Below are positions 18,227-64,000 of a DNA stretch of 64,000 nt, one piece after another. Both the position numbers and the translations under genes were made by a program. The notes below the pieces were generated by a model. The model was given only the letters and a program-made list of their open reading frames with translations. It had not been told where the DNA came from and made no database searches. The first letter of the stretch is position 1. Every line of letters begins with the position of its first letter. Origin of the DNA: Physcomitrium patens (Eukaryota > Streptophyta > Bryopsida > Funariales > Funariaceae); assembly GCF_000002425.4 (NCBI RefSeq), contig NC_037275.1:10960533-11024532 (forward strand). The letters are read 5' to 3'.

Positions 18227-18349
18227 TGTCCTATTACGTGCTTTCCTGCTCCAGAACGCGCCAGGCGTCTAGCTGTAGAAGGTAGTATGGAGATTTGCCG
18301 ATAGTCAAGCAGTCTATCAATTTTTGACTGCTGGAATATAAACGACTGC
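18227..18349 (-). repeat. LTR fragment inserted in the C1 protease
   Basis: It starts TGTCCTATTACGTGC and matches the first ~125 bp of the C LTRs, ending at ...AACGACTGC. It replaces about 124 bp of protease sequence that is present in C2 at 25,553-25,676. The left flank GTTGCC is the same host point at which the right end of LTR 3 joins protease sequence (26,980). Confidence 0.85.
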
Positions 18350-20401
18350 GTTATTAGCTGCTCGTATTGCCCATCCATGTTCCATATCAATTGGCCATTT
18401 TTGCTTCTTATAAAGATCTTTAAACATGAGATTTATTTCAGAACCATGGTCCACCAAGGCAACTATTGGTTCTTCTTTATCTCCTACCTTCACCAATACC
18501 TCAGTAGTTGCCCTTGCCCAATGCTTTCGAGTATAATGGCTCAAAGTTTCCATTTCCTTGTCACTAGAATCTTCGAAACGTACTCGTTGATTACATCCAT
18601 TCTTTTCATTTGTTGGTTGCTTGTAACCAATATCAACCTCTTCTTCATCTCTACATATTCTTGCATCAATAGCATGACTCATTCCAATTTCGCTCATTAA
18701 TTGCCTCTTTCGCTTAATGCTGTCAATGATAACATCATGAAACTCCTTCTTTGCAATTCCCAAGACTTCTTTCAATGTGAATTCCACCTTAGCATTTAAT
18801 ATACGTTCTTCTAACACCCCTTTCAAATTTGTTGCCGCTTCAATATCAGAAAGTAGCTTATAAGCAATTGATTTGCCCTTATCTTTTGTCTCCGTTGTTT
18901 TTCCTCCCAATGATGCTGAGGTATCCTTTACAGGCAATTCTTGTGAACCTACCTCCCGAGCCTTGTCTCCTCGAGTTTGCCTCTTAAAAGAATTTCCTTC
19001 TCTAGTATCATCAAAATTTCCTCGTCTTTTTTCTTCCATCAAAGCTTCATGTTGGCTCTTAGCAATATATGCATGAACTGAAAGAGACTCAACAGGATCC
19101 TCCCAACCTATTCTTCCTCGTATTGTAGCTGCAGTTCTCAATAATGCTTCTCGAGGTAATTTCCCTTCTTGCATTGTAGAAACGGCAGAAGCCCAAAACT
19201 CACTAATTTCCGTACTTCCACCAATTTCATCATCTACTCTAGCACCATAACTTGCACTTTCTCGTACTACTGTTTGATGCTCTTTTAAGTAATCTTGAAC
19301 CAATGCTCTCATTCCTCCCTTGCCAAAATTGGTTTGAGGAAGATCCTCTCTATCTTTCAATGCTATCTTCCCATCTTTCCAGCAAATAATTCCCTGCCGT
19401 ATCATATTATTAAATTCATTGCAATCTTTTCTAGTGTGTGAAGCATCATCACACCAAATACATCTTTGTACATATCCTTGTTTTGAAACATTCTTCGAAT
19501 TGTTTATAGAAGTATTCTCTTCAAGTCTTGCCAATTTGATTTGAAGATCTCGCATTCCTCGTATAATTTCTTCCATACCCATATCTGCTTTCTTTGACAA
19601 GGATGTCGAAGGTTGAACTGTAGGCATTGTCGGTGGTGTTGTACGTAGTGGAGCTTTGGGTGCTTGTACTGTTTTCGGAATATTGCTCCTATCCTTCCTC
19701 CTTTCTTTTTTTGTAAGCAACCCCACCGCATCTTCAACGTTCTTCCACTTCGTTGTCAATTCTTCATCTTCTTCTTTGTCTTCAAGAAGGGGTTCTAATT
19801 TCTCTTGCAATTTTCCATGAGCAGCTTGAAGAAATAGATCAACTTTGTTCGGCTCCAATGTCAATTTTTCTACCTTCGATAATTGAGAGTACTGCCTCTC
19901 AAATTCCCTTAGTAGCTCTGTTGCTTGTAAATTCTTATTGGGCCGTTCAATCCATCCCAGAAACAACTTCTTAGTAACGCGATCAGCATCTTCCAAGAAA
20001 TATTCGTCTTTCAATGCATGTGAAAAATCCTCCCATGAATTCTAACAACGATCCGTAATCGATGTAATGTCGTCCCTTATCTCCGGTATCGTGGCAAGTC
20101 CAAATAGTGCAACCATTTTCTTCTCAGAAACCTGATTTAATTCCATTTCACGAACATAACATCTTAAATACCTTGAAATATTCCTCCCATCAAATTGATC
20201 AATTTTATTGACAACTGCTTGCAATGCTTTGGTTGCCAAAGCTTCCTTTCGATCATTGCTTTGTTGTTGCTGTATTGACAATGAGAAGGCTTGAAACAAA
20301 CTAGCAATAGATGGATCCATGTGCATACCTTGTCCTTTAGAAGAATCCCCACCAAAATCTTCTCCCAAAAATCCTTCAAAATTTTTATTTTCGTTTTCCA
20401 T
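18350..20401 (-). pseudogene. gag and protease N-terminus of element C1
   Basis: It starts at MENENKNFEGFLG (20,401) just inside the 5' LTR. A capsid-like segment (KIDQFDGRNISRYLRCYVRE) is followed by a stop at 20,042. A 565-residue frame then contains the CCHC zinc knuckle CIWCDDASHTRKDC (19,420-19,470) and a protease start, VALVDHGSEINLM, with DHG in place of DSG/DTG. The frame then runs into the LTR fragment. One TAA stop (CAA in C3) is the only break in the gag part, so this copy is comparatively young. Confidence 0.8.
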
Positions 20402-20472
20402 AAAAATAAAGATAAAATCAACCGATATCCAATACCTTCTACCTCAAGCTTTCACGTTGGGTTCACCACTTA

Positions 20473-21820
20473 TGTCGTATTACGTGCTTTCCTGCTCGAG
20501 AACGTGCCGGGCGTCTGGCTGTAGAAGGTAGTATGGAGATTTGCCTATAGTCAAGCAGTCTATCAGTTTTTGACTGCTGGAATATAAACGACTGCAACAA
20601 TGTACCGTAAATCTATACGGATGCTCTTCGACTGCTTGTCGAAGTCTTTTTTTTTTTTTTTTTTTTTTCCAGCCGATAGGACTCTAGACGTTACAGAGAA
20701 CCCCGAACAACCCAAACTATTAATCTTCAATACCCCTTTGTACTTACGATCTTGTATCCACTGACTGTCTTGTTAGATTAACCCAATAAATTTCATTCAC
20801 TCCGCATACTCAATCCTATAGACACCCCTTTAATCCTTCAATCATAGACGTAACTTGATTTTACAAAACAGTTAAGAGTATTCAAACCCACTTCATTTAA
20901 AAATCCCGATTCACCATTACAACACTAACTTCAGCAGCGATTGCCTCAGTCTTCCCAAAACTCTACGAAGAAGAAAAATCCAAATTCTATGTCTTTCCTT
21001 CCCCGACCCGAAGCATGAAGCTCCTCTCTCTAATTGCCTTGATCTTTCAAAAACCTCCAATGAAAAACCAAACTGGTAACCTTGCAAAAGCTTGAAAACT
21101 CGCTCCCCCCCCGATTCCCCCGAAAAAAAACCTCCCCCTTCAAAACTATATTCCCCCCTAACCTTATCCTCTGAATTTCTTCAATCTTTCGTCTTAGATC
21201 CGGAATTGGCTCCCACCTCAAGCTTGGATCCGAAATTGGCTCTCGCCGTCAAGTTTTGTCCTCCGTTTTTACCTTTAAGAAATCCATTTACCGAAAACAA
21301 CGTTCCCTGAAACGGCACAGAGAACAGGACAGCCTGAAACAGAATCGAACCCCGTAATCGGGACCACATTGAGTCGCCCGACCAATTCAGGTCCTATATT
21401 GGGAAAGATGCTCGTAGTAACCTGGATGTTTCCGTAATTGGGTCAAATTGGTCCTCGCGTCAGATTGGCTAAGATCCGTAGTAAGACCTGGATTTCCCCG
21501 TAATTAGACTGCATTGGGTTGACCGGCCAATTCAGGTCTCATATTGGATAATAGAACCCGGATTGGATTCTTGAAATTGGATCCAATTGGCTCCTCGAAC
21601 CCGTCGTGTGAATTGGTCCTTCTCTTCCTGCTGACTCCCGTTATTGGAATCGAACGGAGCATTTTAGTATGCCCCGGCTGACTGTAACGGAGTGACTGAA
21701 CCTGACCACTCAGTATTTGTACTGGAGTTGGTTGATGCTCCCAATATTCGAGGTAACTGAATATTAATAAAATTCCTCTTTCTTTTTATTTTCACTGTAT
21801 ACTCGTGTTACAACACGACA
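20473..21820 (-). repeat. C-array LTR 2 (shared by C1 and C2)
   Basis: It runs TGTCGTATTACG to CAACACGACA, 1,348 bp. It serves as 5' LTR of C1 and 3' LTR of C2, as expected for a tandem array formed by LTR recombination. It has a run of about 22 T at 20,647-20,668 where LTR 1 and LTR 4 have a short T run followed by GCCCC or GTCCCG. On the - strand the sequence after its end is TAAGTGGTGAACCCAACGTG, a possible primer-binding site that I could not assign to a tRNA with confidence. Confidence 0.85.
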
Positions 21821-21834
21821 TCCACCCCCTCTGA
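21821..21834 (-). other. Polypurine tract of C2
   Basis: Same - strand tract AGAGGGGGTGGA next to the LTR as in C1. Confidence 0.75.
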
Positions 21835-21882
21835 ACCTGTGCATCCTCCGGTATGCACTAATTTACCCAATTGCTGTTTGAT

Positions 21883-23190
21883 TCAGAATATATCCCCTAC
21901 GTCTTTGTCTAGTTCGTCTTCGTCACCTTCATTATCCATATCACTTTCATCTTCTTGCTGCGGATTCTCTGTACCTTCATTAAGGTCTTCCATATTCATC
22001 TCCGTGTGTCTTTGTTTAAATATTTTTACTCGCTTCCCTGCAATTGGTATTTTCAATTTTGTACCATCTAACTCCCGTAGTAAGTAAGTCGCATTATCAT
22101 GAACAGTTTTTACTACATATGGTCCAAACCAATGTTTTGAAAATTTCCGCAAAGTACTATGTTGATTATCCAGACTATTGTCATAAACAAGTACCCAGTC
22201 ACCTTTCTCGATTGCTTTTAGTCTCAATCGATGTTGCTTATCGAATCGCGCCTTATTTTGTAACCTTGCTCTTTTTAACCTTTCTAATGCTATCTGCACA
22301 TCTTCCGTTCTTTGCTCCAATTGTCGAATCCTAATAGCGAGAAGTTCTTCTCTTGTCAATCCATCTTCCCATGGTAGCATACTCCAAGTAAGTACCTTTT
22401 CTTCAATCGGCATAATTGGTTTTTGACCTGTCATAAGTTCTACTGGCATATATCCTGTCACCGAACTATGTGTTGTTCGATCAGCCCATAATGCAAATGA
22501 CAAAACCCGTGGCCACTCTTTAACCTTCCCATTACAAGCTTTAACCAATGCTTTCACAATCGGTGGGTGACCACGATCGCTTTTCGCATTCCCTTCCGGA
22601 TTATAAGCAGTAGTCGGTGATAGTTTAACTCCACATTTTTCAAAGAACTTACGAGCTTCTTTTACATTTAATTCTCCACGATCTGCAGTGATTTTTCCTA
22701 CGCACCCGTAACGGCAAATGACATCTTCAAGCAAAAACCTACAAATCCTCTCTGTAGATTTTGTCCTCAATGCTCTTCCTTCTACTAGATTTGATAAATC
22801 TTCACGAGCTAAAACCAAATATCTCATCTGCCATAACCCAACCGGTATAATAACCAAATCAACAATCCATTTAAAATGAATAGCCAGAGGATACGTAGGA
22901 TGAAGACCATCTCGATGTCGGATATTAGAATACGATTGACAGATTTCACATGACTCTACAAATGAGAGCACATCTCGATACATATTTTTCTACCAATATC
23001 GTTCCTTGAGTTTAGCAAAAGTAGCCCAGATTCCTCTATGCCCTGCCTATAAACTATCATGAAACTCCTTTAATAATTTTAGTTTTTCTTCCTTTTTGCC
23101 TACCACTCGTCATGGCATCCCAATTCCTTTCTTCGGTCTCTTCCATAAGAATCCATCTCGAAGTAAAAATCCATATGCTTTTTTTCTTAT
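21883..23190 (-). pseudogene. Integrase of element C2
   Basis: A 366-residue uninterrupted frame (21,883-22,983) covers the catalytic core and C-terminal domain: CEICQSYSN, IVDLVIIPVGLW, TADRGEL, NPEGNAKSDRGH, then WFGPYVVKTVHDN and an acidic tail. The third catalytic position is aspartate, as in C1. The zinc-finger part upstream (22,990-23,190) has two in-frame stops shared with C1, so both copies descend from one already defective parent, or the stops are read through. Confidence 0.8.
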
Positions 23191-24936
23191 TTATTTGAAT
23201 TTTTTTGTAGGCCAATTCCCCTGCTTAGTCAAGGTATTCAAGTAATGACCAATATCCAATAATTCTCCTTCATAAGATTCTTCAAGAAATAGCTTGTCTT
23301 CTCTGTTGAGATTTGATATTGAATAGAATTTCAATCCAACGTCATCAATGTCTTCAACCATTTCGTCCTCCCTCTCGTATCTTGCTCGAGATAGCATGTC
23401 TGCTACTAAATTGTCATTTCCAGTGATATGCTTAAATTCTGGATTTAGTGACTTAATATAAGCAATCCATCTCAACATTGCAATATCTGGCGTTGAACAG
23501 TTAATAATCATTCCAAGTAATGGCAAGCAATCTGTTTCAATTACTATTACTGCCTTAATCAAATAGTCCTTTTCAGCTTTCATAGCCGAAATGACTCCCC
23601 AAAGTTCTCTTTTGACTTGCGAATATGCACGCTGACGAATACTTAAAACTTTAGTTCTAAATCGAACTGCAAATCTATTCCCATTTGAATCATCTTGACC
23701 CACAGCCCATCCAATGGCAATTAGACTAGCGTCCACAGTAAGAATCACTGGTCTATTGCACTTATAATCAACCTTCCTCAATATTGGAGGTGACATCAAT
23801 AATTTCTTCAATCTTTGCATTGCCTGAATATGCCTTTCTTCCCATTTAAATCGGTAACCTTTGCGTAACAGTTCATATAATGAATCCGCTATGTGAGCAA
23901 AATGAGGGATCCAGATTCGATAAAATATACATGCATCCAAAAACCAGCGAACCTCTGTTAAAGAATCACAATCCTCTTTCATCCTTCCAATTGCATCAAC
24001 TTTAGTCGGATCTGGTTTTCTTCTGTAAGATCCACATAAATATCCAACAAATACAACCTCTCGCACTCCAAATACGGACTTCATACCCGATAATGTAAGA
24101 TGAACTTCTCCAAGCCGAGTTAAAATCTTTTCACAATCTTGTATATGATCAACAACATATCTGCGACACCCCCTCGTATCTAAAGTTTCATCCTTGTCTC
24201 CTTCTCTGCACCCTTTTATAGGAACATCATCCAGAAAAGGCATAGTCTTTTCCGGAATAAAATCTCTCAATACCTTATTCATCCCATTCATCATATGCGC
24301 AACTGAGTTGGTCGCGCCTTTAGGAAGAGTGCACATTCTAATCAATCCAAGTGGTGTCCTCATTGTTGTCATATCTCTATTTCCTTCGGCAAGTTGAAAT
24401 TGATCATAACCTGAATACAAGTCACCCATTGAATAGATCGCCCTTCCAGCAAACGCCTCAGCAAATTCATCCACAATAGGTCCAATTCCTGCATTCCTGA
24501 CATTTACAGCATTCACCGGCTGCATATCTTGAATAAACTGTAGTGACCCATTCTTCTTAGGTACCGTAAACCATCGACTAGAATACGGCGCAAATGAAGG
24601 TTCTAATATTTTCATCTTTATCTTTTCTTTCAATAGTTCGACCAATTTAGGTAAATGTGCCCTCGGTACTGGAATCGGTCTTAGATTCCAAGGTACATGC
24701 GGTACAGTGAAGATAACCATAGGTGTTATAATATTCGGATCCACACACCCAATTTCATAAGATTCGAAGGCAAACGATCTACCTTGTTTAGCCAACATCT
24801 TTTTGAAGCAAGTAATTTCCTCCGGCAATAAAGAACCATCAGAACCAATCTTCAATTCTTCAAAAGTCTCTTCAGTAAACTGATGTCCAATACTCATTGG
24901 ATCTCTTAAACTTGCTTCTTTTGATGCTTCTCCCAT
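23191..24936 (-). CDS. Reverse transcriptase-RNase H of element C2
   Basis: This is the longest open frame of the retrotransposon region, 581 residues from MGEASKEASL. RT spans about residues 60-330 (VPKKNGSLQF, YSMGDLYSGYDQF, PFLDDVPIKG as catalytic motif, VFVGYLCGSY). The connection domain is about 330-400, and RNase H about 400-545 (LTVDASLIAIGW, QVKRELWGV, ETDCLPLLG, ADMLSRARY). It would copy element RNA to DNA and degrade the template. It is flanked by stops on both sides (24,937-24,957 and 23,188-23,190), so it would need to be part of a longer polyprotein, and the element as a whole is not complete. Confidence 0.75.
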   Translation of the reverse strand: MGEASKEASLRDPMSIGHQFTEETFEELKIGSDGSLLPEEITCFKKMLAKQGRSFAFESYEIGCVDPNIITPMVIFTVPHVPWNLRPIPVPRAHLPKLVELLKEKIKMKILEPSFAPYSSRWFTVPKKNGSLQFIQDMQPVNAVNVRNAGIGPIVDEFAEAFAGRAIYSMGDLYSGYDQFQLAEGNRDMTTMRTPLGLIRMCTLPKGATNSVAHMMNGMNKVLRDFIPEKTMPFLDDVPIKGCREGDKDETLDTRGCRRYVVDHIQDCEKILTRLGEVHLTLSGMKSVFGVREVVFVGYLCGSYRRKPDPTKVDAIGRMKEDCDSLTEVRWFLDACIFYRIWIPHFAHIADSLYELLRKGYRFKWEERHIQAMQRLKKLLMSPPILRKVDYKCNRPVILTVDASLIAIGWAVGQDDSNGNRFAVRFRTKVLSIRQRAYSQVKRELWGVISAMKAEKDYLIKAVIVIETDCLPLLGMIINCSTPDIAMLRWIAYIKSLNPEFKHITGNDNLVADMLSRARYEREDEMVEDIDDVGLKFYSISNLNREDKLFLEESYEGELLDIGHYLNTLTKQGNWPTKKFK

Positions 24937-24957
24937 TTGTTCTTTAGAATCCTCTGG

Positions 24958-25753
24958 TTATGGTCCGGCAACAGGCTTTACCTTCTTATCTGCCGTTTTA
25001 TATCTCGTCTCTACTGTGACTTCTGGTGCTTGAAAAGATTCAAGCATGGTATAAACCTCTCTCGAATGAATCTCAACAATCTTATCATTATCCCCTAATC
25101 CAATAGATGTAATCAATTCCAATGAATCTTCCAGTCCATTTTCTTCATAAACACCCAAAATCCTCTCATCATCTTGCAATGTACCTAACTTGCATAATTC
25201 TCCTTCAATATTATATAATCTTTTCTTTCTTTTCTTTTAAAATCATCAACTTTCTTATAGATAATATTTCCATTCTCCAATATACCAATAAAACTCGAAT
25301 TAAAGGCACCTTCATCTCGCGAGAGTACCTCCTCTTTTGTACCTCCATAATCTCGCTTTACAGTGGTACCTCCCCAAAATCCTTAAATCCTTCAACAATC
25401 TTTGGCAATGGTTTCTCCTTCAACCTATCTCGATTCCGTTCATGGTTAGGAGGTACTGTTAGAAATTGTACAGCTTTCCTCCCATCTTCGCTCCGTACCC
25501 TTGCATAAGTAGAACCATCGTCAAGTACTTTTGTTTCCATCCGTGTTGCCATGATATAAGGTTGTCCTAAAATCAACGGATAAGACGTTGTATCTTGAAC
25601 GAAGAAATGTTGCTCCGTCGTAACATCCCCAATCCGAATTTTGACATCTGGACAAGCTCCATATAATTCGCCCCGTGTGTTATTAGCTGCTCGTATTGCC
25701 CATCCATGTTCCATATCAATTGGCCATTTTTGCTTCTTATAAAGATCTTTAAA
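24958..25753 (-). pseudogene. Protease and linker of element C2, truncated
   Basis: It contains the protease C-terminal half (QHFFVQDTTSYPLILGQPYI near 25,570-25,630, then METKVLDDGS) and the linker to RT with the same stops as C1. Upstream it breaks off after the segment KNGQLIWNMDG at 25,753, where interior LTR sequence begins. About 205 bp of this end (25,549-25,753) is repeated on the far side of LTR 3 (26,980-27,184). Confidence 0.75.
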
Positions 25754-26979
25754 TTTCCAGCCGATAGGTCTCTAGACGTTACAGAGAACCCCGAACAATC
25801 CAAATTGTTAATCTTCAATACCTCTTTGTACTTACGATCTTGTATCCACTGACTGTCCTGTTAGATTAACCCAGTAAATTTCATTNNNNNNNNNNNNNNN
25901 NNNNNNNNNNNNNNNNNNNNNNNNNNNNNNNNNNNNNNNNNNNNNNNNNNNNNNNNNNNNNNNNNNNNNNNNNNNNNNNNNNNNNCCCTTTAATCCTTCA
26001 TCATAGACGTAACTTGATTTTACAAAACAGTTAAGAGTATTCAAACCCACTTCATTTAAAAATCCCGATTCACCATTACAACACTAACTTCAGCAGCGAT
26101 TGCCTCAGTCTTCCCAAAACTCTACGAAGAAGAAAAATCCAAATTCTATGTCTTTCCTTCCCCGACCCGAAGCATGAAGCTCCTCTCTCTAATTGCCTTG
26201 ATCTTTCAAAAACCTCCAATGAAAAACCAAACTGGTAACCTTGCAAAAGCTTGAAAACTCGCTCCCCCCCCGATTCCCCCGAAAAAAAACCTCCCCCCTC
26301 AAAACTATATTCCCTCCTAACCTTATCCTCTGAATTTCTTCAATCTTCCGTCTTAGATCCGGAATTGGCTCCCACTTCAAGCTTGGATCCGAAATTGGCT
26401 CTCGCCGTCAAGTTTTGTCCTCCGTTTTTACCTTTAAGAAATCCATTTACCGAAAACAACGTTCCCTGAAACGGCACAGAGAACAGGACAGCCTGAAACA
26501 GAATCGAACCCCGTAATCGGGACCACATTGAGTCGCTCGACCAATTCAGGTCCTATATTGGGAAAGATGCTCGTAGTAACCTGGATGTTCCCGTAATTGG
26601 GTCAAATTGGTCCTCGCGTCAGATTGGCTAAGATCCGTAGTAAGATCTGGATTTCCCCGTAATTAGACTGCATTGGGTTGACCGGCCAATTCAGGTCTCA
26701 TATTGGATAAGAGGACCCGGATTGGATTATCGAAATTGGATCCAATTGGCTCCTCGAACCCGTCGTGTGAATTGGTCCTTCTCTTCCTGCTGACTCCCGT
26801 TATTGGAATCGAACGGAGCATTTCAGTATGCCCCGGCTGACTGTAACGGAGTGACTGAACCTGACCACTCAGTATTTGTACTGGAGTTGGTTGATGCTCC
26901 CAATATTCGAGGTAACTGAATATTAATAAAATTCCCCTTTCTTTTTATTTTCACTGTATACTCGTGTTACAACACGACA
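25754..26979 (-). repeat. C-array LTR 3, left-truncated, with assembly gap
   Basis: It starts in the LTR interior at TTTCCAGCCGATAGG, about 195 bp inside the LTR 2 equivalent and exactly after the position of the LTR 2 poly-T. It continues to the normal end AACACGACA. It lies inside the protease gene and is therefore an extra LTR rather than an element end. It contains 100 N at 25,886-25,985. Confidence 0.85.
25886..25985. other. Assembly gap of 100 N
   Basis: Flanks read ...AATTTCATT and CCCTTTAATCC. LTR 2 has only about 27 bases between these two flanks, so the true missing sequence is probably near that length and the 100 N is a placeholder. Confidence 0.95.
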
Positions 26980-29161
26980 CCATAATATAAGGTTGTCCTA
27001 AAATCAACGGATAAGACGTTGTATCTTGAACAAAGAAATGTTGCTCCGTCGTAACATCCCCAATCCGAATTTTGACATCTGGACAAGCTCCATATAATTC
27101 GCCTGGTGTGTTATTAGCTGCTCGTATTGCCCATCCATATTCCATATCAATTGGCCATTTTTGCTTCTTATAAAGATCTTTAGACATGACATTTATTTCA
27201 GAATCATGGTCGACTAAAGCAACTATTGGTTCTTCTTTATCTCCTACCTTCACCAATACCTCAGTAGTTGCCCTTGCCCAATGCTTTCGAGTATAATGCC
27301 TCAAAGTTTCTATTTCCTTGTCACTAGAATCTTCGAAACGTACTCGTTGATTACATCCATTCTTTTCATTTGTTGGTTGCTTGTAACCAATATCAACCTC
27401 TTCTTCATCTCTACATATTCTTGCATCAATAGCATGACTCATTCCAATTTCGCTCATTAATTGCCTCTTTCGCTTAATGCTGTCAATGATAACATCATGA
27501 AACTCCTTCTTTGCAATTCCCAAGACTTCTTTCAATGTGAATTCCACCTTAGCATTTAATATACGTTCTTCTAACACCCCTTTCAAATTTGTTGCCGCTT
27601 CAATATCAGAAAGTAGCTTATAAGCAATTGATTTGCCCTTATCTTTTGTCTCCGTTGTTTTTCCTCCCAATGATGCTGAGGTATCCTTTACAGGCAATTC
27701 TTGTGAACCTACCTCCCGAGCCTTGTCTCCTCGAGTTTGCCTCTTAAAAGAATTTCCTTCTCTAGTATCATCAAAATTTCCTCGTCTTTTTTCTTCTATC
27801 AAAGCTTCATGTTGGCTCTTAGCAATATATGCATGAACTGAAAGAGACTCAACAGGATCCTCCCAACCTATTCTTCCTCGTATTGTAGCTGCAGTTCTCA
27901 ATAACGCTTCTCGAGGTAATTTTCCTTCTTGCATTGTAGAAACGGCAGAAGCCCAAAACTCACTAGTTTCCGTACTTCCACCAATTTCATCATCTACTCT
28001 AGCACCATAACTTGCACTTTCTCGTACTGCTGTTTCATGCTCTTTTAGGTAATCTTAAACCAATGCTCTCATTCCTCCCTTGCCAAAATTGGTTTGAGGA
28101 AGATCCTCTCTATCTTTCAATGCTATCTTCCCATCTTTCCAGCAAATAATTCCCTGCTGTATCATATTATTAAATTCATTGCAATCTTTTCTAGTGTGTG
28201 AAGCGTCATCACACCAAATGCATCTTTGTACATATCCTTGTTTTGAAACATTCTTCGAATTGTTTATAGAAGTATTCTCTTCAAGTCTTGCCAATTTGAT
28301 TTGAAGATCTCGCATTCCTCGTATAATTTCTTCCATCCCCATATCTGCTTTCTTTGATAAGGATGTCGAAGGTTGAACTGTAGGCATTGTTGGTGGTGTT
28401 GTACGTAGTGGAGCTTTGGGTGCTTGTACTATTTTTGGAATATTGCTCCAATCCTTCTTCCTTTCTCTTTTTGTAAGCAACCCCACCGCATCTTCAACGT
28501 TCTTCTACTTTGTTGTCCATCCTTCATCTTCTTCTTTGTCTTCAAGAAGGAGTTCTTATTTCGCTTGCAATTCTCCATGAGTAGCTTGAAGAAATCGATC
28601 AACTTTGTTCGGCTCCAATGTCAATTTTTCTACCTTCGACAATTGAGAGTACTGCCTCTCAAATTCCCTTAGTAGCTCTGTTGCTTGTAAATTCTTATTG
28701 GGCCGTTCAATCCATTCCAGAAACAACTTCTTAGTAACGCGATCAGCATCTTCCAAGAAATATTCGTCTTTCAATGCATGTGAAAAATCCTCCCATGAAT
28801 TCTGACAACGATCTGTAATCGATGTAATGTCGTCCCTTATCTCCGGTATCGTGGCAAGTCCAAATAGTGCAACCATTTTCTTCTCAGAAATCCGATTTGA
28901 TTCCATTTCACGAATATAACATCTTAAATACCTTGAAATATTCCTCCCATCAAATTGATCAATTTTATTGACCACTGCTTGCAATGCTTTGGTTGCCAAA
29001 GCTTCCTTTCGATCATTGCTTTGCTGTTGCTGCATTGATAATGAGAAGGCTTGAAACATACTAGCAATAGATGGATCCATGTGCATACCTTGTCCTTTAG
29101 AAGAATCTCCACCAGAAACTCCTCCCAAAAATCCTTCAAAATTTTTATTTTCATTTTCCAT
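26951..29161 (-). pseudogene. gag and protease of the interrupted C2 element (upstream half, C3)
   Basis: It starts at MENENKNFEGFLGGV (29,161). The capsid region is open here to 28,556 (201 residues) where C1 has a stop, then stops occur near 28,555 and 28,508. The zinc knuckle CIWCDDASHTRKDC is at about 28,190-28,230, and after a stop at 28,054 a 327-residue frame leads to the protease. The active site reads VDHDSEIN (DHD), different from DHG in C1. The frame ends in LTR 3 at 26,979. Together with 21,883-25,753 this makes up one internal region, split by LTR 3. Confidence 0.8.
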
Positions 29162-29231
29162 AAAATAAAGATAAAATCAACCGAAATCCAATACCTTCCA
29201 CCTCAAGCTTTTACGTCGGGTTCATGACTTT

Positions 29232-56196: not shown

Positions 56197-56457
56197 GTGC
56201 GTGTTTGGTTGGTTGGTTGGTTTATTCTTTCTTCTTTCTTCTTCTTCTTCTTCTGCCTGTTCTTCTTCCAGTGAGCCAGTGAGTGTTGTATGATGTTGGT
56301 GATGGTGCGGGTATGGGGTTTGTGGGGGACAGGGAGCAATGGGGTGGGTTTGAGGCGAGATGTTGGTTGTAGCAGGGAGGGAGAGGGAGTGAGAAATGGA
56401 GGTGGAGGCGTGGTGAGGGGGCGGGGGGAGAGCAGGAGAGCGAGGGTGGGTGAGAAT

Positions 56458-56501
56458 GTCCCACACGGGTTGGAGCGGCGGGGTGTGGGTGGGTGGTAGA
56501 A
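56458..56501 (+). promoter_or_regulatory. U1 promoter, unit 1 (USE-like and -32 element)
   Basis: GTCCCACACGG at 56,458-56,468 (-68 to -58) matches 9 of 11 positions of the plant snRNA upstream sequence element RTCCCACATCG. GGTAGAAG follows at 56,494-56,501 (-32), 25 bp after the USE, where a TATA box is expected. Confidence 0.75.
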
Positions 56502-56525
56502 GCGTGCGGAGGAGCGATGGGGAGG

Positions 56526-56687
56526 GCACTTACCTGGGCGGGGTCGATCCATGATCAGGAAGGTGGATGGCCTAGAGGAGCCCGGCCCATTGCACTGACG
56601 GGGCGGGCGGCTCTAGTATCTCTCTACGGAGGGCATACACGTCGTAATTTGTGGCAGTGGGGGCTCGCGTTCGCGCGGCCCCCGCCC
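56526..56687 (+). ncRNA. U1: U1 spliceosomal snRNA, unit 1
   Basis: The 5' end reads GCACTTACCTGGGCGGGG; its ACTTACCTG pairs with 5' splice sites of introns in pre-mRNA. Downstream come stem-loop sequences with CATTGCAC (U1-70K/U1A loop region) and the Sm-binding site AATTTGTGG, then the terminal stem-loop CTCGCGTTCGCGCGG within GC-rich arms. Length of about 162 nt is normal for plant U1. The first two bases differ from the usual AT. The 3' end is set at the base of the last stem. U1 snRNP starts spliceosome assembly. Confidence 0.95.
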
Positions 56688-56689
56688 AA

Positions 56690-56696
56690 AGCGTAA
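56690..56696 (+). terminator. U1 3' box-like element, unit 1
   Basis: AGCGTAA lies 3 bp past the U1 3' end and resembles the plant snRNA 3'-end signal (CA, spacer, AGTNNAA). A related AGCACAA follows U4 and AGCACGAA follows U5. Confidence 0.45.
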
Positions 56697-56852
56697 GCCG
56701 AAACCGGAGGAGACTAGGTGTGTGGGTGTGTTTCAAAGTTGTGAGTGTCCGAGAAAACCCCCGCATTCTGCGATGGCCGCCGCATACACTCGCTCCTATG
56801 ATTGACAAAGCGAGTGAGCGCAACAACGAACCGCGCGTGCGCCGCCGTCCCG

Positions 56853-56975
56853 ATCGATGGTCCAGCGAACACTCGGGGCACAGCTGCTGTGGCAGTGAGC
56901 GTTGCTCCGCCGCCCTCCCCGATCGATGGTCCAGTGAACACTCGGGGCAGCTGCTGTGGGCAGTGAGCGTTGCTC
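56853..56975. repeat. Local duplication between U1 and U4, unit 1
   Basis: Two adjacent copies of about 60 bp start with CCGATCGATGGTCCAG and share CGAACACTCGGGGCA/TGAACACTCGGGGCA, CAGCTGCTGTGG and CAGTGAGCGTTGCTCC. The copies differ by a few substitutions and small indels. Function unknown. Confidence 0.8.
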
Positions 56976-57294
56976 CCGCGCGGGGTAAGAAGGGCGATTC
57001 CACGCCCGAGTCGGATCGGGTCACAACCTCCTCCCTCCGAGGCGCGAGCTGTGAGGGAGGAGGGGCGATGGGCGTTGGATTTTGCGAGGCGCACGTCTGA
57101 CCCCGATCTCTCTGACTGTGCCGATGAGAGCGCAAATGGGATGAGGTTACGGCCTAGCGCACAGGCTGGTGGTGCAGCGAAGGGGAAGCACGCGATGGCG
57201 GGTGAGGGGCGTGCCAATGGCAGTTGCGCTGCACGGTGTGTCGCCTCCGGCAGCGGCGCCTGGTGACGATTTAGTGGTGGGTCGGGGGCAGATT

Positions 57295-57339
57295 GCCCCA
57301 TAGCGATGGGAGGAGACGAGCCCCCGGGGGAGGTACATG
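57295..57339 (+). promoter_or_regulatory. U4 promoter, unit 1
   Basis: GCCCCATAGCG at 57,295-57,305 (-71 to -61) is identical to the U2 upstream element and matches 8 of 11 USE positions. GGTACATG at 57,332-57,339 (-34) takes the place of a TATA box after a 26-bp gap. Confidence 0.7.
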
Positions 57340-57365
57340 CGGGGGGAGGCGGGGAGGGAGACGAC

Positions 57366-57508
57366 ATCTTTGCGCTTGGGGCAATGACGCAGTTAGTGAG
57401 GCAAACCCGAGACGCGTCAATTGCTGGTTGAAAACTATTTCCAACCCCCCTGCGGTGCCCGCGAGGGCGCCCCAGAATTTCTGGAAGGTCTGGCGTAGGC
57501 CGGGACCT
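57366..57508 (+). ncRNA. U4: U4 spliceosomal snRNA, unit 1
   Basis: It starts ATCTTTGCGCTTGGGGCA, the U4 region that pairs with U6 (stem II) and then the 5' stem-loop bound by the 15.5K/Snu13 protein (CAATGACGCAGTTAGTGAGG). It continues with TTGCTGGTTGAAAACTATTT, stem-loop 3 and the Sm site AATTTCTGG, and ends in a hairpin GGTCTGGC/GGCCGGGACC. About 143 nt. U4 carries U6 in the U4/U6.U5 tri-snRNP. The 3' end is placed at the base of the last hairpin. Confidence 0.93.
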
Positions 57509-57513
57509 CACAA

Positions 57514-57520
57514 AGCACAA
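57514..57520 (+). terminator. U4 3' box-like element, unit 1
   Basis: AGCACAA, preceded by CA, 6 bp past the U4 3' end. Confidence 0.4.
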
Positions 57521-57755
57521 ACCCCAAACAGGATGGCTCGGAGTGTGCGCAGCCCTGTGTCGCTCTCCCCTCGGATCTGTGGTTTGCGTCGGCAGCGGCG
57601 GCGGGACCGTGGCCCCGCGCACTGCCGGGGAGTGCAGGTGGCACACAGCTCGGTGACGAGCCAAGTAGACGACGCCGTGAGCGCGCAGCCGTGTGGGTGG
57701 AACCGAGCGTGGGCCTGTGGTGCGTGGTCCGGGTGTGCTGCCGCCGGCGGACGCG

Positions 57756-57827
57756 GCGTTTGTAGTCCAACGGTTAGGATAATTGCCTTCCAAGCAATGG
57801 ACCCGGGTTCGACTCCCGGCAAACGCA
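57756..57827 (+). tRNA. tRNA-Gly(UCC): tRNA-Gly (anticodon UCC), unit 1
   Basis: A 72-nt cloverleaf: acceptor GCGTTTG/CAAACGC with discriminator A, D-arm with GGTTAGGAT, anticodon stem ATTGC/GCAAT around CTTCCAA (anticodon TCC), and T-arm CCGGG-TTCGACT-CCCGG. The internal A and B boxes are present, no intron. It lies between convergent U4 and U5 genes. Confidence 0.97.
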
Positions 57828-57841
57828 CGCACGCGCGCCCC

Positions 57842-57845
57842 TTTT
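57842..57845 (+). terminator. Pol III terminator of tRNA-Gly, unit 1
   Basis: TTTT 14 bp after the tRNA, the usual Pol III stop signal. Confidence 0.7.
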
Positions 57846-58021
57846 CTCGCGGCATGCCATGCCCACGGATGATGTGTGGCCCGTCGCCAGCCCCTCCGCG
57901 GACCGCGAGTCGCCGCTTCTCTCCCACTCTCGGGTGTGGCAGGAGGCACACTTCTCCAACCCACACCCACGGAGGCCCTGCCCTTGTGCCCTTGTTCTCC
58001 GTGCTACCCATACAATCCGAC

Positions 58022-58029
58022 TTCGTGCT
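58022..58029 (-). terminator. U5 3' box-like element, unit 1
   Basis: On the - strand AGCACGAA lies about 10 bp past the U5 3' end and resembles the elements after U1 and U4, with one extra base. Confidence 0.4.
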
Positions 58030-58039
58030 TCCAATTGGT

Positions 58040-58161
58040 GGGCCCCGCAAACGGGGCAGTCCAAAAACTCTGGCTATGCCGGTCGTTGCGCCCAGCGCAC
58101 GGTATTCTTTAGTAAAAGGCGAAAGAATAGTTCGCTCTGTGCTGAGCGCCCGGCCCCATAT
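58040..58161 (-). ncRNA. U5: U5 spliceosomal snRNA, unit 1
   Basis: The - strand carries the invariant loop 1, CGCCTTTTACTAAAG, closed by ATTCTTT/AAAGAAT. Loop 1 aligns the exons at both splice steps. The long 5' stem follows (GCGCTCAGC... pairing with GCGCTGGGCGC), then a Sm-type site AGTTTTTGG and the terminal hairpin GCCCCGTTTGCGGGGC. The 5' end (ATATGGGG) was placed 32 bp after the -32 element. About 122 nt. Confidence 0.92.
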
Positions 58162-58185
58162 CTCCCCCGCCCAAACATCCACGCT

Positions 58186-58230
58186 CTTCTACGCATGCCC
58201 TGCCCCTTCTTCCACCCAACCGTATGGGAC
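58186..58230 (-). promoter_or_regulatory. U5 promoter, unit 1
   Basis: On the - strand GTCCCATACGG (58,230-58,220) is the USE-like element, differing from the U1 one at a single base. CGTAGAAG (58,193-58,186) is the -32 element, 26 bp further on. Base 58,220 is the one that differs in unit 2. Confidence 0.7.
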
Positions 58231-58681
58231 CGACGCGTGCCCTGCCCTTCCTCCGCCCACTAACCCGACGTGCAATCTGTATCCCTCTCAACTTCCCACC
58301 ACCGCTGTATGTTGATGTTGGAGTCAACCATGGGTGTTCCTGGCACAAAACCATCCCATCTCCCTCAGATCCACTCAAATCCATGGATCAATGGATGAAC
58401 ACAATTCTAAGAAACGGGCAAGTGAAGAGAGAAAGGGAAATCTTGAAATTTGAAGCTGTGTTCTTTCAAACAAACAGGAAATCATCGTCATCGTCATCAT
58501 CATCACCACCATGAAAACGACAACAGGCTATGAGAATGAGAATGAGAAGGAAAAAACAAAACAAAAACACGATAAAACAAATCAATCAACCAATAACAAG
58601 CATGCACTGGTACATAAAAATAAGCACAGTGACATCTGTGATAAAGAACGAGAACGCGTATTTCAAGAAAAAACACAAAAA

Positions 58682-58704
58682 AAAAAAAAAAAAAAAAAAA
58701 AAAC
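58682..58704. repeat. Poly-A tract in the AT-rich spacer, unit 1
   Basis: About 24 A in the AT-rich block (58,440-59,100) between U5 and U2. The block has no gene; it also holds a CAT/CATC microsatellite near 58,480-58,512. Confidence 0.85.
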
Positions 58705-59100
58705 ACAATAATAACGACATCAACAATAAACAAAATAACAAAATCAAGTTTTCATAGATAAGAAATGAAAACTGCAATGCCGAAAAATAAAGCTAAATAA
58801 ATAAACAAACAAACATACGCCACAAACCACAAAACAAATTCCACCAATACTCAAGAACACAGTTTTTCAGACAATTATGTAACAATACCCCAAAATTAAT
58901 AACAAACACACAGAAAAACACGAAAACAAATCGAAATACCAAAATGTAACCAAACTTGGTTAGATTCATTTTTCTCGACATTTTGTGTTTATTGTTATTC
59001 ATTCCTTTATTTGCTTCCCCTTGCTGCTGCTGCTTCTTCTTCTTCGTCTCCGTCTGTGTTTTGTTTTGTTTTGTTTTGTTTGTTAGTTCATTCATTCATT

Positions 59101-59120
59101 ACGTCATGCTTGCATGACGT
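59101..59120. other. Palindrome in the U2 3' spacer, unit 1
   Basis: ACGTCATGCTTGCATGACGT is an almost perfect inverted repeat with TGACGT (bZIP-type) half-sites. It lies downstream of U2 and is repeated in unit 2 at 63,048-63,067. Confidence 0.6.
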
Positions 59121-59459
59121 GTGTTTGTAGAGCCCGGGCACGGCGTTAGTTGGGATCCACCTCGTAACTGAACAGCGTCCAGGGGTGTGGGATGGGCTGG
59201 CGTGGGTTAGCGGGGGAAATACAAAAAAGCGACGGGACGACGGGACCGCGTGTGGCTGACAAGGTGGCCCCCGCGGGGTGGGGAGGCGGCGTCCAACTCA
59301 AAATCGAGCGTCACCAGCGCCAGCACAGGCGGGCCGTGGCAAGGCTGGTTGGCTCTTCCACCCATCCCCACAGTCGACGTTCGGGGTCCACTGACGCGCA
59401 CACTCTTTCCAGTTTCGCTCTTTGCATTGTAGAGGGGGCCCTCCGGGAAACGGAGGGAA

Positions 59460-59653
59460 ATGGGCTGCGCCGGCCGAGGAGGTAGTGCAAGACCAAGGCG
59501 ACGCGCGCTGGCCCGGGCAGCAAGCTGCCGGATGGGCCCGCACCCGAGATAAATTAGATTAATATCGTGAGGCTCGATGAGCCTCGTATCAGATATTAAA
59601 CTGATAAGAACAGATACTACACTTGATCTTAGCCAAAAGGCCGAGAAAGGTAT
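59460..59653 (-). ncRNA. U2: U2 spliceosomal snRNA, unit 1
   Basis: Read on the - strand: ATACCTTTCTCGGCCTTTTGG, the conserved U2 5' end, then AGTGTAGTATCTGTTCT with the branch-site pairing region GTAGTA, stem-loop II (ATCAGTTTAATATCTGATAC), stem IIb (GAGGCTCATCGAGCCTC), an Sm-type AATTTAT, and stem-loops III and IV (CCGGCAGCTTGCTGCCCGG; TTGCACTACCTCC). About 194 nt, near the 196 of plant U2. The 3' end is placed after GGCGCAGCCC. Confidence 0.96.
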
Positions 59654-59678
59654 GCCTCTTCCCTCCCGCCCCGCCCTC

Positions 59679-59723
59679 CTTCTACCCCCACCTCCGCCCT
59701 CCCTCCTGCACACGCTATGGGGC
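59679..59723 (-). promoter_or_regulatory. U2 promoter, unit 1
   Basis: On the - strand GCCCCATAGCG (59,723-59,713, -70 to -60), identical to the U4 element, is followed after 26 bp by GGTAGAAG (59,686-59,679, -33), identical to the U1 -32 element. Confidence 0.7.
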
Positions 59724-60039
59724 ATTCACCACCCACCCACTGCCACTTCAACATATCAACATACTCGCCACACCACCAAATCAAAGTCCCCGCCCTCCAA
59801 ATCATCATCGCCCCCAGGCTCTCTTGCATTTTGCAACCACACAACACCAAAACAACCATGCTGAATACCGTGGTTTTCTTGGTTTGAAGACTGGAAAGGG
59901 TGGGGGCTCCACCGGTGCTACTACTCATGGTCAAACAAAATACCCCAAAATATGGGAAAGCGTGGCATGTAGTTACCTAGGGTATATTCATGTGAGTGTC
60001 TTTATTTACATATTTTTTTACTTATTTATTTCATTTTCG

Positions 60040-60130
60040 ATGGACGGATGGACGGACGGACGGACGGACGGATGGATGGATGGATGGATGGATGGATGGA
60101 TGGATGGATTGATTGATTGATTGATTGGTT
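60040..60130. repeat. GGAC/GGAT/GATT microsatellite at the unit junction
   Basis: Runs of GGAC, GGAT and then GATT tetranucleotides followed by GGTT and GCGT units end unit 1. The same tract begins again at the window end (63,987-64,000). Confidence 0.9.
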
Positions 60131-60404
60131 GGTTGATGCGTGCGTGCGTGTTTGGTTGGTTGGTTGGTTTATTCTTTCTTCTTTCTTCTTCTTCTTCTTC
60201 TGCCTGTTCTTCTTCCAGTGAGCCAGTGAGTGTTGTATGATGTTGGTGATGGTGCGGGTATGGGGTTTGTGGGGGACAGGGAGCAATGGGGTGGGTTTGA
60301 GGCGAGATGTTGGTTGTAGCAGGGAGGGAGAGGGAGTGAGAAATGGAGGTGGAGGCGTGGTGAGGGGGCGGGGGGAGAGCAGGAGAGCGAGGGTGGGTGA
60401 GAAT

Positions 60405-60448
60405 GTCCCACACGGGTTGGAGCGGCGGGGTGTGGGTGGGTGGTAGAA
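60405..60448 (+). promoter_or_regulatory. U1 promoter, unit 2
   Basis: USE-like GTCCCACACGG and -32 GGTAGAAG, identical to unit 1. Confidence 0.75.
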
Positions 60449-60472
60449 GCGTGCGGAGGAGCGATGGGGAGG

Positions 60473-60634
60473 GCACTTACCTGGGCGGGGTCGATCCATG
60501 ATCAGGAAGGTGGATGGCCTAGAGGAGCCCGGCCCATTGCACTGACGGGGCGGGCGGCTCTAGTATCTCTCTACGGAGGGCATACACGTCGTAATTTGTG
60601 GCAGTGGGGGCTCGCGTTCGCGCGGCCCCCGCCC
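60473..60634 (+). ncRNA. U1: U1 spliceosomal snRNA, unit 2
   Basis: Identical to the unit 1 copy as far as read: 5' splice-site pairing ACTTACCTG and Sm site AATTTGTGG. Both copies should be equally functional if their promoters are. Confidence 0.95.
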
Positions 60635-61241
60635 AAAGCGTAAGCCGAAACCGGAGGAGACTAGGTGTGTGGGTGTGTTTCAAAGTTGTGAGTGTCCGAG
60701 AAAACCCCCGCATTCTGCGATGGCCGCCGCATACACTCGCTCCTATGATTGACAAAGCGAGTGAGCGCAACAACGAACCGCGCGTGCGCCGCCGTCCCGA
60801 TCGATGGTCCAGCGAACACTCGGGGCACAGCTGCTGTGGCAGTGAGCGTTGCTCCGCCGCCCTCCCCGATCGATGGTCCAGTGAACACTCGGGGCAGCTG
60901 CTGTGGGCAGTGAGCGTTGCTCCCGCGCGGGGTAAGAAGGGCGATTCCACGCCCGAGTCGGATCGGGTCACAACCTCCTCCCTCCGAGGCGCGAGCTGTG
61001 AGGGAGGAGGGGCGATGGGCGTTGGATTTTGCGAGGCGCACGTCTGACCCCGATCTCTCTGACTGTGCCGATGAGAGCGCAAATGGGATGAGGTTACGGC
61101 CTAGCGCACAGGCTGGTGGTGCAGCGAAGGGGAAGCACGCGATGGCGGGTGAGGGGCGTGCCAATGGCAGTTGCGCTGCACGGTGTGTCGCCTCCGGCAG
61201 CGGCGCCTGGTGACGATTTAGTGGTGGGTCGGGGGCAGATT

Positions 61242-61286
61242 GCCCCATAGCGATGGGAGGAGACGAGCCCCCGGGGGAGGTACATG
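61242..61286 (+). promoter_or_regulatory. U4 promoter, unit 2
   Basis: GCCCCATAGCG and GGTACATG at the same spacing as in unit 1. Confidence 0.7.
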
Positions 61287-61312
61287 CGGGGGGAGGCGGG
61301 GAGGGAGACGAC

Positions 61313-61455
61313 ATCTTTGCGCTTGGGGCAATGACGCAGTTAGTGAGGCAAACCCGAGACGCGTCAATTGCTGGTTGAAAACTATTTCCAACCCCCCTGC
61401 GGTGCCCGCGAGGGCGCCCCAGAATTTCTGGAAGGTCTGGCGTAGGCCGGGACCT
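61313..61455 (+). ncRNA. U4: U4 spliceosomal snRNA, unit 2
   Basis: Starts ATCTTTGCGCTTGGGGCA and carries the same Sm site AATTTCTGG; identical to unit 1 as far as read. Confidence 0.93.
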
Positions 61456-61702
61456 CACAAAGCACAAACCCCAAACAGGATGGCTCGGAGTGTGCGCAGC
61501 CCTGTGTCGCTCTCCCCTCGGATCTGTGGTTTGCGTCGGCAGCGGCGGCGGGACCGTGGCCCCGCGCACTGCCGGGGAGTGCAGGTGGCACACAGCTCGG
61601 TGACGAGCCAAGTAGACGACGCCGTGAGCGCGCAGCCGTGTGGGTGGAACCGAGCGTGGGCCTGTGGTGCGTGGTCCGGGTGTGCTGCCGCCGGCGGACG
61701 CG

Positions 61703-61774
61703 GCGTTTGTAGTCCAACGGTTAGGATAATTGCCTTCCAAGCAATGGACCCGGGTTCGACTCCCGGCAAACGCA
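61703..61774 (+). tRNA. tRNA-Gly(UCC): tRNA-Gly (anticodon UCC), unit 2
   Basis: Identical 72-nt cloverleaf to unit 1, again with TTTT 14 bp downstream (61,789-61,792). Confidence 0.97.
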
Positions 61775-61986
61775 CGCACGCGCGCCCCTTTTCTCGCGGC
61801 ATGCCATGCCCACGGATGATGTGTGGCCCGTCGCCAGCCCCTCCGCGGACCGCGAGTCGCCGCTTCTCTCCCACTCTCGGGTGTGGCAGGAGGCACACTT
61901 CTCCAACCCACACCCACGGAGGCCCTGCCCTTGTGCCCTTGTTCTCCGTGCTACCCATACAATCCGACTTCGTGCTTCCAATTGGT

Positions 61987-62108
61987 GGGCCCCGCAAACG
62001 GGGCAGTCCAAAAACTCTGGCTATGCCGGTCGTTGCGCCCAGCGCACGGTATTCTTTAGTAAAAGGCGAAAGAATAGTTCGCTCTGTGCTGAGCGCCCGG
62101 CCCCATAT
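61987..62108 (-). ncRNA. U5: U5 spliceosomal snRNA, unit 2
   Basis: Same loop 1 (CGCCTTTTACTAAAG), Sm-type site and terminal hairpin as in unit 1. Confidence 0.92.
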
Positions 62109-62132
62109 CTCCCCCGCCCAAACATCCACGCT

Positions 62133-62177
62133 CTTCTACGCATGCCCTGCCCCTTCTTCCACCCAAGCGTATGGGAC
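62133..62177 (-). promoter_or_regulatory. U5 promoter, unit 2 (one-base variant)
   Basis: The USE-like element reads GTCCCATACGC here; the last G of unit 1 is C. The -32 element CGTAGAAG is unchanged. Confidence 0.7.
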
Positions 62178-63406
62178 CGACGCGTGCCCTGCCCTTCCTC
62201 CGCCCACTAACCCGACGTGCAATCTGTATCCCTCTCAACTTCCCACCACCGCTGTATGTTGATGTTGGAGTCAACCATGGGTGTTCCTGGCACAAAACCA
62301 TCCCATCTCCCTCAGATCCACTCAAATCCATGGATCAATGGATGAACACAATTCTAAGAAACGGGCAAGTGAAGAGAGAAAGGGAAATCTTGAAATTTGA
62401 AGCTGTGTTCTTTCAAACAAACAGGAAATCATCGTCATCGTCATCATCATCACCACCATGAAAACGACAACAGGCTATGAGAATGAGAATGAGAAGGAAA
62501 AAACAAAACAAAAACACGATAAAACAAATCAATCAACCAATAACAAGCATGCACTGGTACATAAAAATAAGCACAGTGACATCTGTGATAAAGAACGAGA
62601 ACGCGTATTTCAAGAAAAAACACAAAAAAAAAAAAAAAAAAAAAAAAAAACACAATAATAACGACATCAACAATAAACAAAATAACAAAATCAAGTTTTC
62701 ATAGATAAGAAATGAAAACTGCAATGCCGAAAAATAAAGCTAAATAAATAAACAAACAAACATACGCCACAAACCACAAAACAAATTCCACCAATACTCA
62801 AGAACACAGTTTTTCAGACAATTATGTAACAATACCCCAAAATTAATAACAAACACACAGAAAAACACGAAAACAAATCGAAATACCAAAATGTAACCAA
62901 ACTTGGTTAGATTCATTTTTCTCGACATTTTGTGTTTATTGTTATTCATTCCTTTATTTGCTTCCCCTTGCTGCTGCTGCTTCTTCTTCTTCGTCTCCGT
63001 CTGTGTTTTGTTTTGTTTTGTTTTGTTTGTTAGTTCATTCATTCATTACGTCATGCTTGCATGACGTGTGTTTGTAGAGCCCGGGCACGGCGTTAGTTGG
63101 GATCCACCTCGTAACTGAACAGCGTCCAGGGGTGTGGGATGGGCTGGCGTGGGTTAGCGGGGGAAATACAAAAAAGCGACGGGACGACGGGACCGCGTGT
63201 GGCTGACAAGGTGGCCCCCGCGGGGTGGGGAGGCGGCGTCCAACTCAAAATCGAGCGTCACCAGCGCCAGCACAGGCGGGCCGTGGCAAGGCTGGTTGGC
63301 TCTTCCACCCATCCCCACAGTCGACGTTCGGGGTCCACTGACGCGCACACTCTTTCCAGTTTCGCTCTTTGCATTGTAGAGGGGGCCCTCCGGGAAACGG
63401 AGGGAA

Positions 63407-63600
63407 ATGGGCTGCGCCGGCCGAGGAGGTAGTGCAAGACCAAGGCGACGCGCGCTGGCCCGGGCAGCAAGCTGCCGGATGGGCCCGCACCCGAGATAAA
63501 TTAGATTAATATCGTGAGGCTCGATGAGCCTCGTATCAGATATTAAACTGATAAGAACAGATACTACACTTGATCTTAGCCAAAAGGCCGAGAAAGGTAT
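63407..63600 (-). ncRNA. U2: U2 spliceosomal snRNA, unit 2
   Basis: Identical to unit 1 as far as read: 5' end ATACCTTTCTCGGCC, branch-site pairing GTAGTA, stem-loops III and IV. Confidence 0.96.
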
Positions 63601-63625
63601 GCCTCTTCCCTCCCGCCCCGCCCTC

Positions 63626-63670
63626 CTTCTACCCCCACCTCCGCCCTCCCTCCTGCACACGCTATGGGGC
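63626..63670 (-). promoter_or_regulatory. U2 promoter, unit 2
   Basis: GCCCCATAGCG and GGTAGAAG at unit 1 spacing, fully inside the window. Confidence 0.7.
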
Positions 63671-64000
63671 ATTCACCACCCACCCACTGCCACTTCAACA
63701 TATCAACATACTCGCCACACCACCAAATCAAAGTCCCCGCCCTCCAAATCATCATCGCCCCCAGGCTCTCTTGCATTTTGCAACCACACAACACCAAAAC
63801 AACCATGCTGAATACCGTGGTTTTCTTGGTTTGAAGACTGGAAAGGGTGGGGGCTCCACCGGTGCTACTACTCATGGTCAAACAAAATACCCCAAAATAT
63901 GGGAAAGCGTGGCATGTAGTTACCTAGGGTATATTCATGTGAGTGTCTTTATTTACATATTTTTTTACTTATTTATTTCATTTTCGATGGACGGATGGAC

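Follow-up and report, generated by a model that had tools for sequence, protein, structure and literature searches.

Can the genes for all four major spliceosomal RNAs of the RNA polymerase II (Pol II) type be carried by one repeated unit in a land plant, and would such a unit be their single source? The question is raised by 64,000 nucleotides of DNA from the moss Physcomitrium patens (GCF_000002425.4, contig NC_037275.1, positions 10,960,533 to 11,024,532, forward strand). This whole stretch is called the window, and positions without contig label are window positions. Its last part contains a repeated cassette with the genes of the small nuclear RNAs (snRNAs) U1, U4, U5 and U2 and with a transfer RNA gene, tRNA-Gly. 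The cassettes very probably form a genuine tandem array, with genes that have their own promoters, copies that are homogenised, RNAs that are under selection and a contribution to gene dosage beside dispersed genes.

Composition of the cassette

At the Rfam gathering thresholds, exactly 10 matches are found across the window, all within 56197-64000. The genes are ordered U1(+), U4(+), tRNA-Gly(+), U5(-), U2(-) and the whole set occurs twice, with a period of exactly 3,947 bp. All four snRNA types are full-length matches that exceed the curated cut-offs and reach the model ends in both units (scores and cut-offs are given in Table 1). ARAGORN calls tRNA-Gly(TCC) twice in the window. The gene order and the unit length proposed in a first-pass annotation of this DNA are thus borne out by the Rfam covariance models and ARAGORN. 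The window includes 1.98 units: the repeat begins at 56197, and unit 2, which begins at 60144 and would reach 64090, is cut by the window end. Over 3,857 comparable positions, the two copies show one difference (C at 58220, G at 62167).

In each unit, two same-strand pairs converge (U1->U4 on the plus strand facing U2->U5 on the minus strand) and tRNA-Gly lies between the convergent ends. The G+C content of the unit is 54.9%, versus 36.8% for positions 1-56196. The sequence involved in recognition of the 5' splice site by U1 (ACTTACCTG) and the U5 loop (GCCTTTTACT) are present (both read by eye). U6 is not called in the unit by Rfam, and its absence from the cassette, alone among the major types, had been annotated correctly. 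When one unit was scanned with Rfam at a permissive threshold (E up to 5), no gene beyond the five was returned; two weak matches (E 0.13 and 1.1) lay on the tRNA. The long open frames of the GC-rich unit probably arose by chance across RNA genes and spacers. A 69-bp tandem duplication (56840-56976), which matched no Rfam family, is found between U1 and U4.

Extent of the array and related loci

Genome-wide searches were run on the genome from which the window comes (470,438,890 bases, 101 contigs). U1, U4 and U6 were censused and all genome counts are lower bounds. Labels such as C2, C3, C23 and C60 designate contigs of this genome; the window lies on C23. Beyond the window, the C23 array continues through the remainder of unit 2 and a complete unit 3 into unit 4, of which the beginning with the U1 gene is present before a run of 18,206 N. 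In total, three complete units and a fragment of a fourth precede this gap, which starts at C23:11029104. The further U1 genes to the right of the window are located at C23:11024952 and C23:11028891. No array sequence was found to the right of the gap, checked up to C23:11070000.

The unplaced contig C60 (12,673 bp) carries about three units. Its U1 genes are spaced by 4,242 and 4,290 bp, and the blocks that align with the C23 unit show 77-91% similarity to it. Because the end of C60 is identical to C3:18760270-18762726 (2,457/2,457 bases) and the C3 chromosome itself retains only a partial unit with U1, C60 most likely corresponds to the C3 array, collapsed in the chromosome assembly. A third lineage, on C2, has the U1 gene once and the U4, tRNA and U5 genes twice each (Rfam), as well as one U2-matching stretch, and is truncated at its edges. 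The tRNA-Gly gene keeps its position in the C23, C60 and C2 lineages and is therefore part of the cassette. The first-pass annotation had proposed a tandem, rDNA-like array (rDNA, ribosomal DNA): the tandem organisation stands, whereas a single locus is not supported, cassette relatives being present at three chromosomal loci. As a check on shared ancestry of the three loci, comparison of short stretches (10 kb at C3 or C2 against 16 kb of window flank) found no similarity between flanks, and in an equally short comparison of the C3 and C2 flanks, array parts alone matched.

A single cassette duplicated during assembly, or two haplotypes joined head to tail, would also give nearly identical copies followed by a gap, as seen on C23. 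However, the copies differ by substitutions and indels, and the C60/C3 and C2 lineages each have more than one copy. Loss of copies is the more likely assembly error; the C3 array was collapsed on the chromosome and kept on C60. An artefact of this kind is very improbable. The concern about assembly duplication, already expressed in the annotation, is answered in part only, by the differences between the C23 copies and by the diverged relatives elsewhere.

Homogenisation and constraint

On C23, units 1 and 2 differ by 2 mismatches in 3,947 bases, units 1 and 3 by 2 mismatches and 12 gap columns, units 2 and 3 by 3 mismatches and 12 gap columns. The C60 units show 0 mismatches in 4,151 aligned bases (100 gap columns) and the C2 units, compared from U4 to U5, 0 mismatches in 1,219 aligned bases (35 gap columns). 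Between arrays, a C23 unit and a C60 unit differ by 522 mismatches and 1,059 gap columns. Copies are thus more alike within arrays (0-3 substitutions) than between arrays: they are homogenised, and the concerted evolution invoked in the annotation is upheld.

The divergence between arrays spares the genes. Between C23 and C60, identity is 160/160 for U1, 72/72 for the tRNA, 115/115 for U5, 129/129 for the compared part of U2 and 134/135 for U4. It is 0.87-0.92 in the promoters and 0.74-0.84 in the spacers (gaps not counted). Between C23 and C2, it is 160/160 for U1, 72/72 for the tRNA, 111/114 for U5, 123/125 for the compared part of U2 and 132/138 for U4. Judged from these alignments, the array genes are under constraint. 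Since copies are nearly identical within arrays and spacers are diverged between arrays, unequal exchange or gene conversion would be the process that keeps the copies alike, while selection would hold the RNAs unchanged.

Arrays of rDNA consist of head-to-tail units that are nearly identical within an array, with spacers that are diverged between arrays. The moss cassettes share these three features. They differ from rDNA in having separate genes with separate promoters instead of one precursor, in the small number of units seen and in spacers that are not homogenised across the three loci.

Promoters

Each snRNA gene is preceded by a box G(C/T)CCCA(C/T)A(C/G)(C/G)(C/G), exactly 28 nt and then a box TA(C/G)A(A/T)G. 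The first resembles the upstream sequence element (USE) and is called the USE-like box, the second the TA box. They start at -68 to -75 and at -29 to -36, respectively, relative to the Rfam start of the gene. Within the window, this composite promoter is found at 8/8 snRNA genes and at no other place. A narrower motif has 7 matches in the window (the second U5 copy is missed through a single substitution) and 0 in 100 shuffles. The motif was picked after inspection, hence an additional alignment without preset motif: the four upstream stretches score 104.9, versus a mean of 52.3 in shuffles (standard deviation 4.2, maximum 61.3, n=25), and the same two boxes are recovered. The positions of the boxes agree with those of plant snRNA promoters (USE near -70, TATA box near -30), but the USE-like boxes deviate from the consensus RTCCCACATCG at 2-3 of 11 positions, and the TA boxes are TAGAAG or TACATG, not TATA. 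Downstream of all four genes, near matches to the three-prime box CAN3-10AGTNNAA are found (best 1 mismatch), the motif being short enough for chance occurrence.

Since a USE-like box and a TA box, at a fixed distance from each other, precede every snRNA gene of the unit, Pol II most likely transcribes each of these genes separately. The tRNA-Gly gene would be transcribed by RNA polymerase III (Pol III).

The offset from CCCA to the TA box is 36-37 in 14/14 Pol II-type rows; not all of these are independent, and three also match the loose TA pattern elsewhere. Two dispersed U4 genes have an offset of 36; for the U4 genes at C5:8.1M and on C10, no offset was obtained. Left out of these counts are the U1 genes below the cut-off (C3:11.77M, C4:14.9M), the U4 genes of C2, which have lost the box, the U1 gene of C3, which is the same as on C60, and second or third array copies. 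For U6, 8 loci from 27 rows gave 6 distinct promoters: the offset is 33 in four of them, 29, 35 and 37 on C15, and none was found on C10. In angiosperms, the distance between USE and TATA box differs by one helical turn between the Pol II and Pol III classes (PMC9845283). Such a difference is not found in this genome, where the offsets of the Pol II-type promoters and of most of the U6 promoters compared differ by about 4 bp.

Dispersed genes and dosage

Fifteen of the 17 U1 rows are over the cut-off: four on C23, three on C60, one on C2, one at C3:18.76M, which may duplicate one C60 gene in this count, and six dispersed (C4, C12, C24, C15 twice, C3:21.86M). All 11 U4 rows are over the cut-off. 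Seven are in cassettes (three on C23, two on C60, two on C2) and four are dispersed (C5 twice, C17 and, weakly, C10 with 49.8 bits). The dispersed U1 and U4 genes have no contig in common, and no U1-U4 pair outside the cassettes appears in the two genome searches. The array U1 matches the six dispersed U1 genes at 132-145 of 154-157 aligned bases, and at least 11 bases differ in each case. The U6 search gave 27 rows among the best 48 candidates scored, 20 of them over the cut-off, and none on C23 or C60. Several U6 genes form inverted pairs, at C12:12.374M, C15:7.064M, C1:19.43M and C2:3.10M, and one U1 pair is likewise inverted (C15:6.18M); members of such pairs are 0.6 to 13.6 kb apart.

The cassettes are not the sole source of U1 and U4. 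This bears on the proposal, made in the annotation, of an rDNA-like single locus that supplies U1, U2, U4 and U5 in equimolar amounts. One gene per type in each unit and homogenised copies would suit such a locus, which is nevertheless improbable: cassette relatives occupy three chromosomal loci, 6/15 U1 and 4/11 U4 genes are dispersed, units are truncated at array edges and the C2 U4 genes have no USE-like box. Because of the dispersed genes and the separate promoters, equimolar supply by the arrays is unsupported. Standing beside dispersed genes, the arrays would add gene dosage and would not alone set stoichiometry.

Evidence for and against functional genes

Several observations weigh against a tandem array of selected, functional genes. 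The usual form of the Sm site is a run of T. The Sm region of the window U2 (59544-59555, minus strand) is AATTTATCTCGG, also found in two C60 copies and one C2 copy of U2 and thus the same in the three lineages. It is unusual, differs from the customary form and resembles the U7-type Sm site. The genes on C2 are worn: their U4, U5 and compared U2 sequences depart from those of C23 as given above, and both U4 genes (at 5526 and 9340 of the C2 array stretch) lack the USE-like box, a loss that is the same in both copies, as though one lesion had been passed on from copy to copy. The U1 genes are identical at three loci and the dispersed U1 genes differ, so that conversion between loci, and not selection alone, might account for the identity. 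In addition, a gap lies within the C23 array, the C3 array is collapsed in the assembly and few units are seen.

The unusual Sm region and the defective C2 U4 promoters could also mark a satellite of dead snRNA genes, and the dispersed genes could suffice without it. Yet C23 and C60 genes are 99-100% identical next to spacers that fall to 74-84%, the Rfam scores of the array genes are close to the best of the genome and the promoter boxes are kept on C23 and C60. That the cassettes are non-functional relics is very improbable, and a tandem array of constrained genes is retained as the explanation.

Comparison with known snRNA gene clusters

The annotation had described plant snRNA genes as usually dispersed or in small clusters of a single type. 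This is wrong in part: mixed clusters are known in Arabidopsis, where U1 lies upstream of U4 in seven clusters and U2 is joined with U5 in one (Wang and Brendel 2004, PMC545797). As in Arabidopsis, U1 is upstream of U4 on one strand and U2 adjoins U5 in tandem in the moss cassette. The Arabidopsis promoters are of the USE and TATA type (PMC545797), and the boxes of the moss genes are similar to these. The Arabidopsis clusters are separate two-gene clusters with spacers of 180-300 nt (U1-U4) or less than 200 nt (U2-U5) (PMC545797), whereas the moss unit contains both pairs and the tRNA gene, has spacers of 680 bp (U1-U4) and 1,304 bp (U2-U5) and is tandemly repeated. The pairings common to moss and Arabidopsis suggest that the linkage may be old.

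Tandem alignment of two snRNA types is occasionally seen in green plants and in animals (PMC4083563). In Symbiodinium minutum, all five snRNAs, including U6, are clustered, and more snRNA genes are found at about 70 places (PMC4083563). Several major types are thus together, as in the moss; this organism is a dinoflagellate, U6 is included and the part of the source that was available describes no homogenised repeat unit (PMC4083563). In fishes, U2-U5 and U1-U2-U5 linkages are known (PMC3464664). There too, mixed types are linked, partly as multigene arrays, but the cases described in the part of the source that was available comprise two or three Pol II types without U4, in another lineage (PMC3464664). 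No four-type snRNA cassette in a plant was found in the open-access literature, surveyed mostly by title and start of abstract, so that an earlier mention is possible.

A broader proposal is possible, though rather doubtful. It combines three elements: U1-U4 and U2-U5 linkage would be ancestral in land plants, kept whole in the moss and split in Arabidopsis; the tRNA-Gly gene would, hypothetically, act as a Pol III barrier to read-through between the convergent Pol II pairs; and the polymerase would be set by about 4 bp of difference in the distance from USE to TA box, not by a helical turn.

Features and surroundings

Table 1. Features of the cassette units in the window. Bit scores are followed by the Rfam cut-off.
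Feature	Position	Strand	Evidence or remark
Cassette unit 1, 3,947 bp	56197..60143		Rfam and copy comparison
U1 promoter: USE-like box, 28 nt, TAGAAG	56458..56502	+	
U1 snRNA gene, unit 1	56526..56685	+	RF00003, 117.7 bits (69.5)
U4 promoter: USE-like box, 28 nt, TACATG	57295..57339	+	
U4 snRNA gene, unit 1	57366..57500	+	RF00015, 101 bits (46)
tRNA-Gly(UCC) gene, unit 1	57756..57827	+	RF00005, 70.7 bits (29); ARAGORN
U5 snRNA gene, unit 1	58041..58155	-	RF00020, 86.9 bits (40)
U5 promoter: USE-like box, 28 nt, TAGAAG	58186..58230	-	Box contains 58220, the base that differs between units
U2 snRNA gene, unit 1	59460..59653	-	RF00004, 173.4 bits (46)
U2 promoter: USE-like box, 28 nt, TAGAAG	59679..59723	-	
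GATG microsatellite by the unit junction	60039..60125		Length varies between copies
Cassette unit 2, cut by window end	60144..64000		Completes at C23:11024622
U1 promoter, unit 2	60405..60449	+	
U1 snRNA gene, unit 2	60473..60632	+	Rfam
U4 promoter, unit 2	61242..61286	+	
U4 snRNA gene, unit 2	61313..61447	+	Rfam
tRNA-Gly(UCC) gene, unit 2	61703..61774	+	Rfam; ARAGORN
U5 snRNA gene, unit 2	61988..62102	-	Rfam
U5 promoter, unit 2	62133..62177	-	Final base of the USE-like box substituted
U2 snRNA gene, unit 2	63407..63600	-	Rfam
U2 promoter, unit 2	63626..63670	-	

About 10 kb from the array, a filament-like plant protein domain is encoded (PF05911, E 2.6e-28), for which 11 homologs with 36-58% identity were found when the 8000 best candidates were scored. 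At 14557-29176 lie two retrotransposon-like blocks that are nearly identical and contain reverse transcriptase, RNase H and integrase-type domains.

A scan of a genome contig collection for U2 gave one plant-like contig, L001, filed under a Trichormus metagenome-assembled genome. Its U2 gene (1697-1838) has a USE-to-TATA spacer of 22 nt and may derive from a host plant, for example the fern Azolla, to judge from the name of the cyanobacterium. In viral contigs, neither of two U2 patterns (one long, one short) nor the tRNA had any match. One viral contig (L002) matched the U5-loop pattern and was rejected, as Rfam called nothing there.

Significance

A land plant can carry genes for all four major spliceosomal RNAs of the Pol II type in arrays that resemble rDNA; signs of homogenisation are seen at each of the three loci. 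Since U1-U4 and U2-U5 are paired in Arabidopsis too, an ancestral linkage of plant snRNA genes becomes testable. In Physcomitrium patens, a model moss in which genes can be targeted, one could delete or alter the array, the tRNA gene or the promoter spacing and measure splicing.

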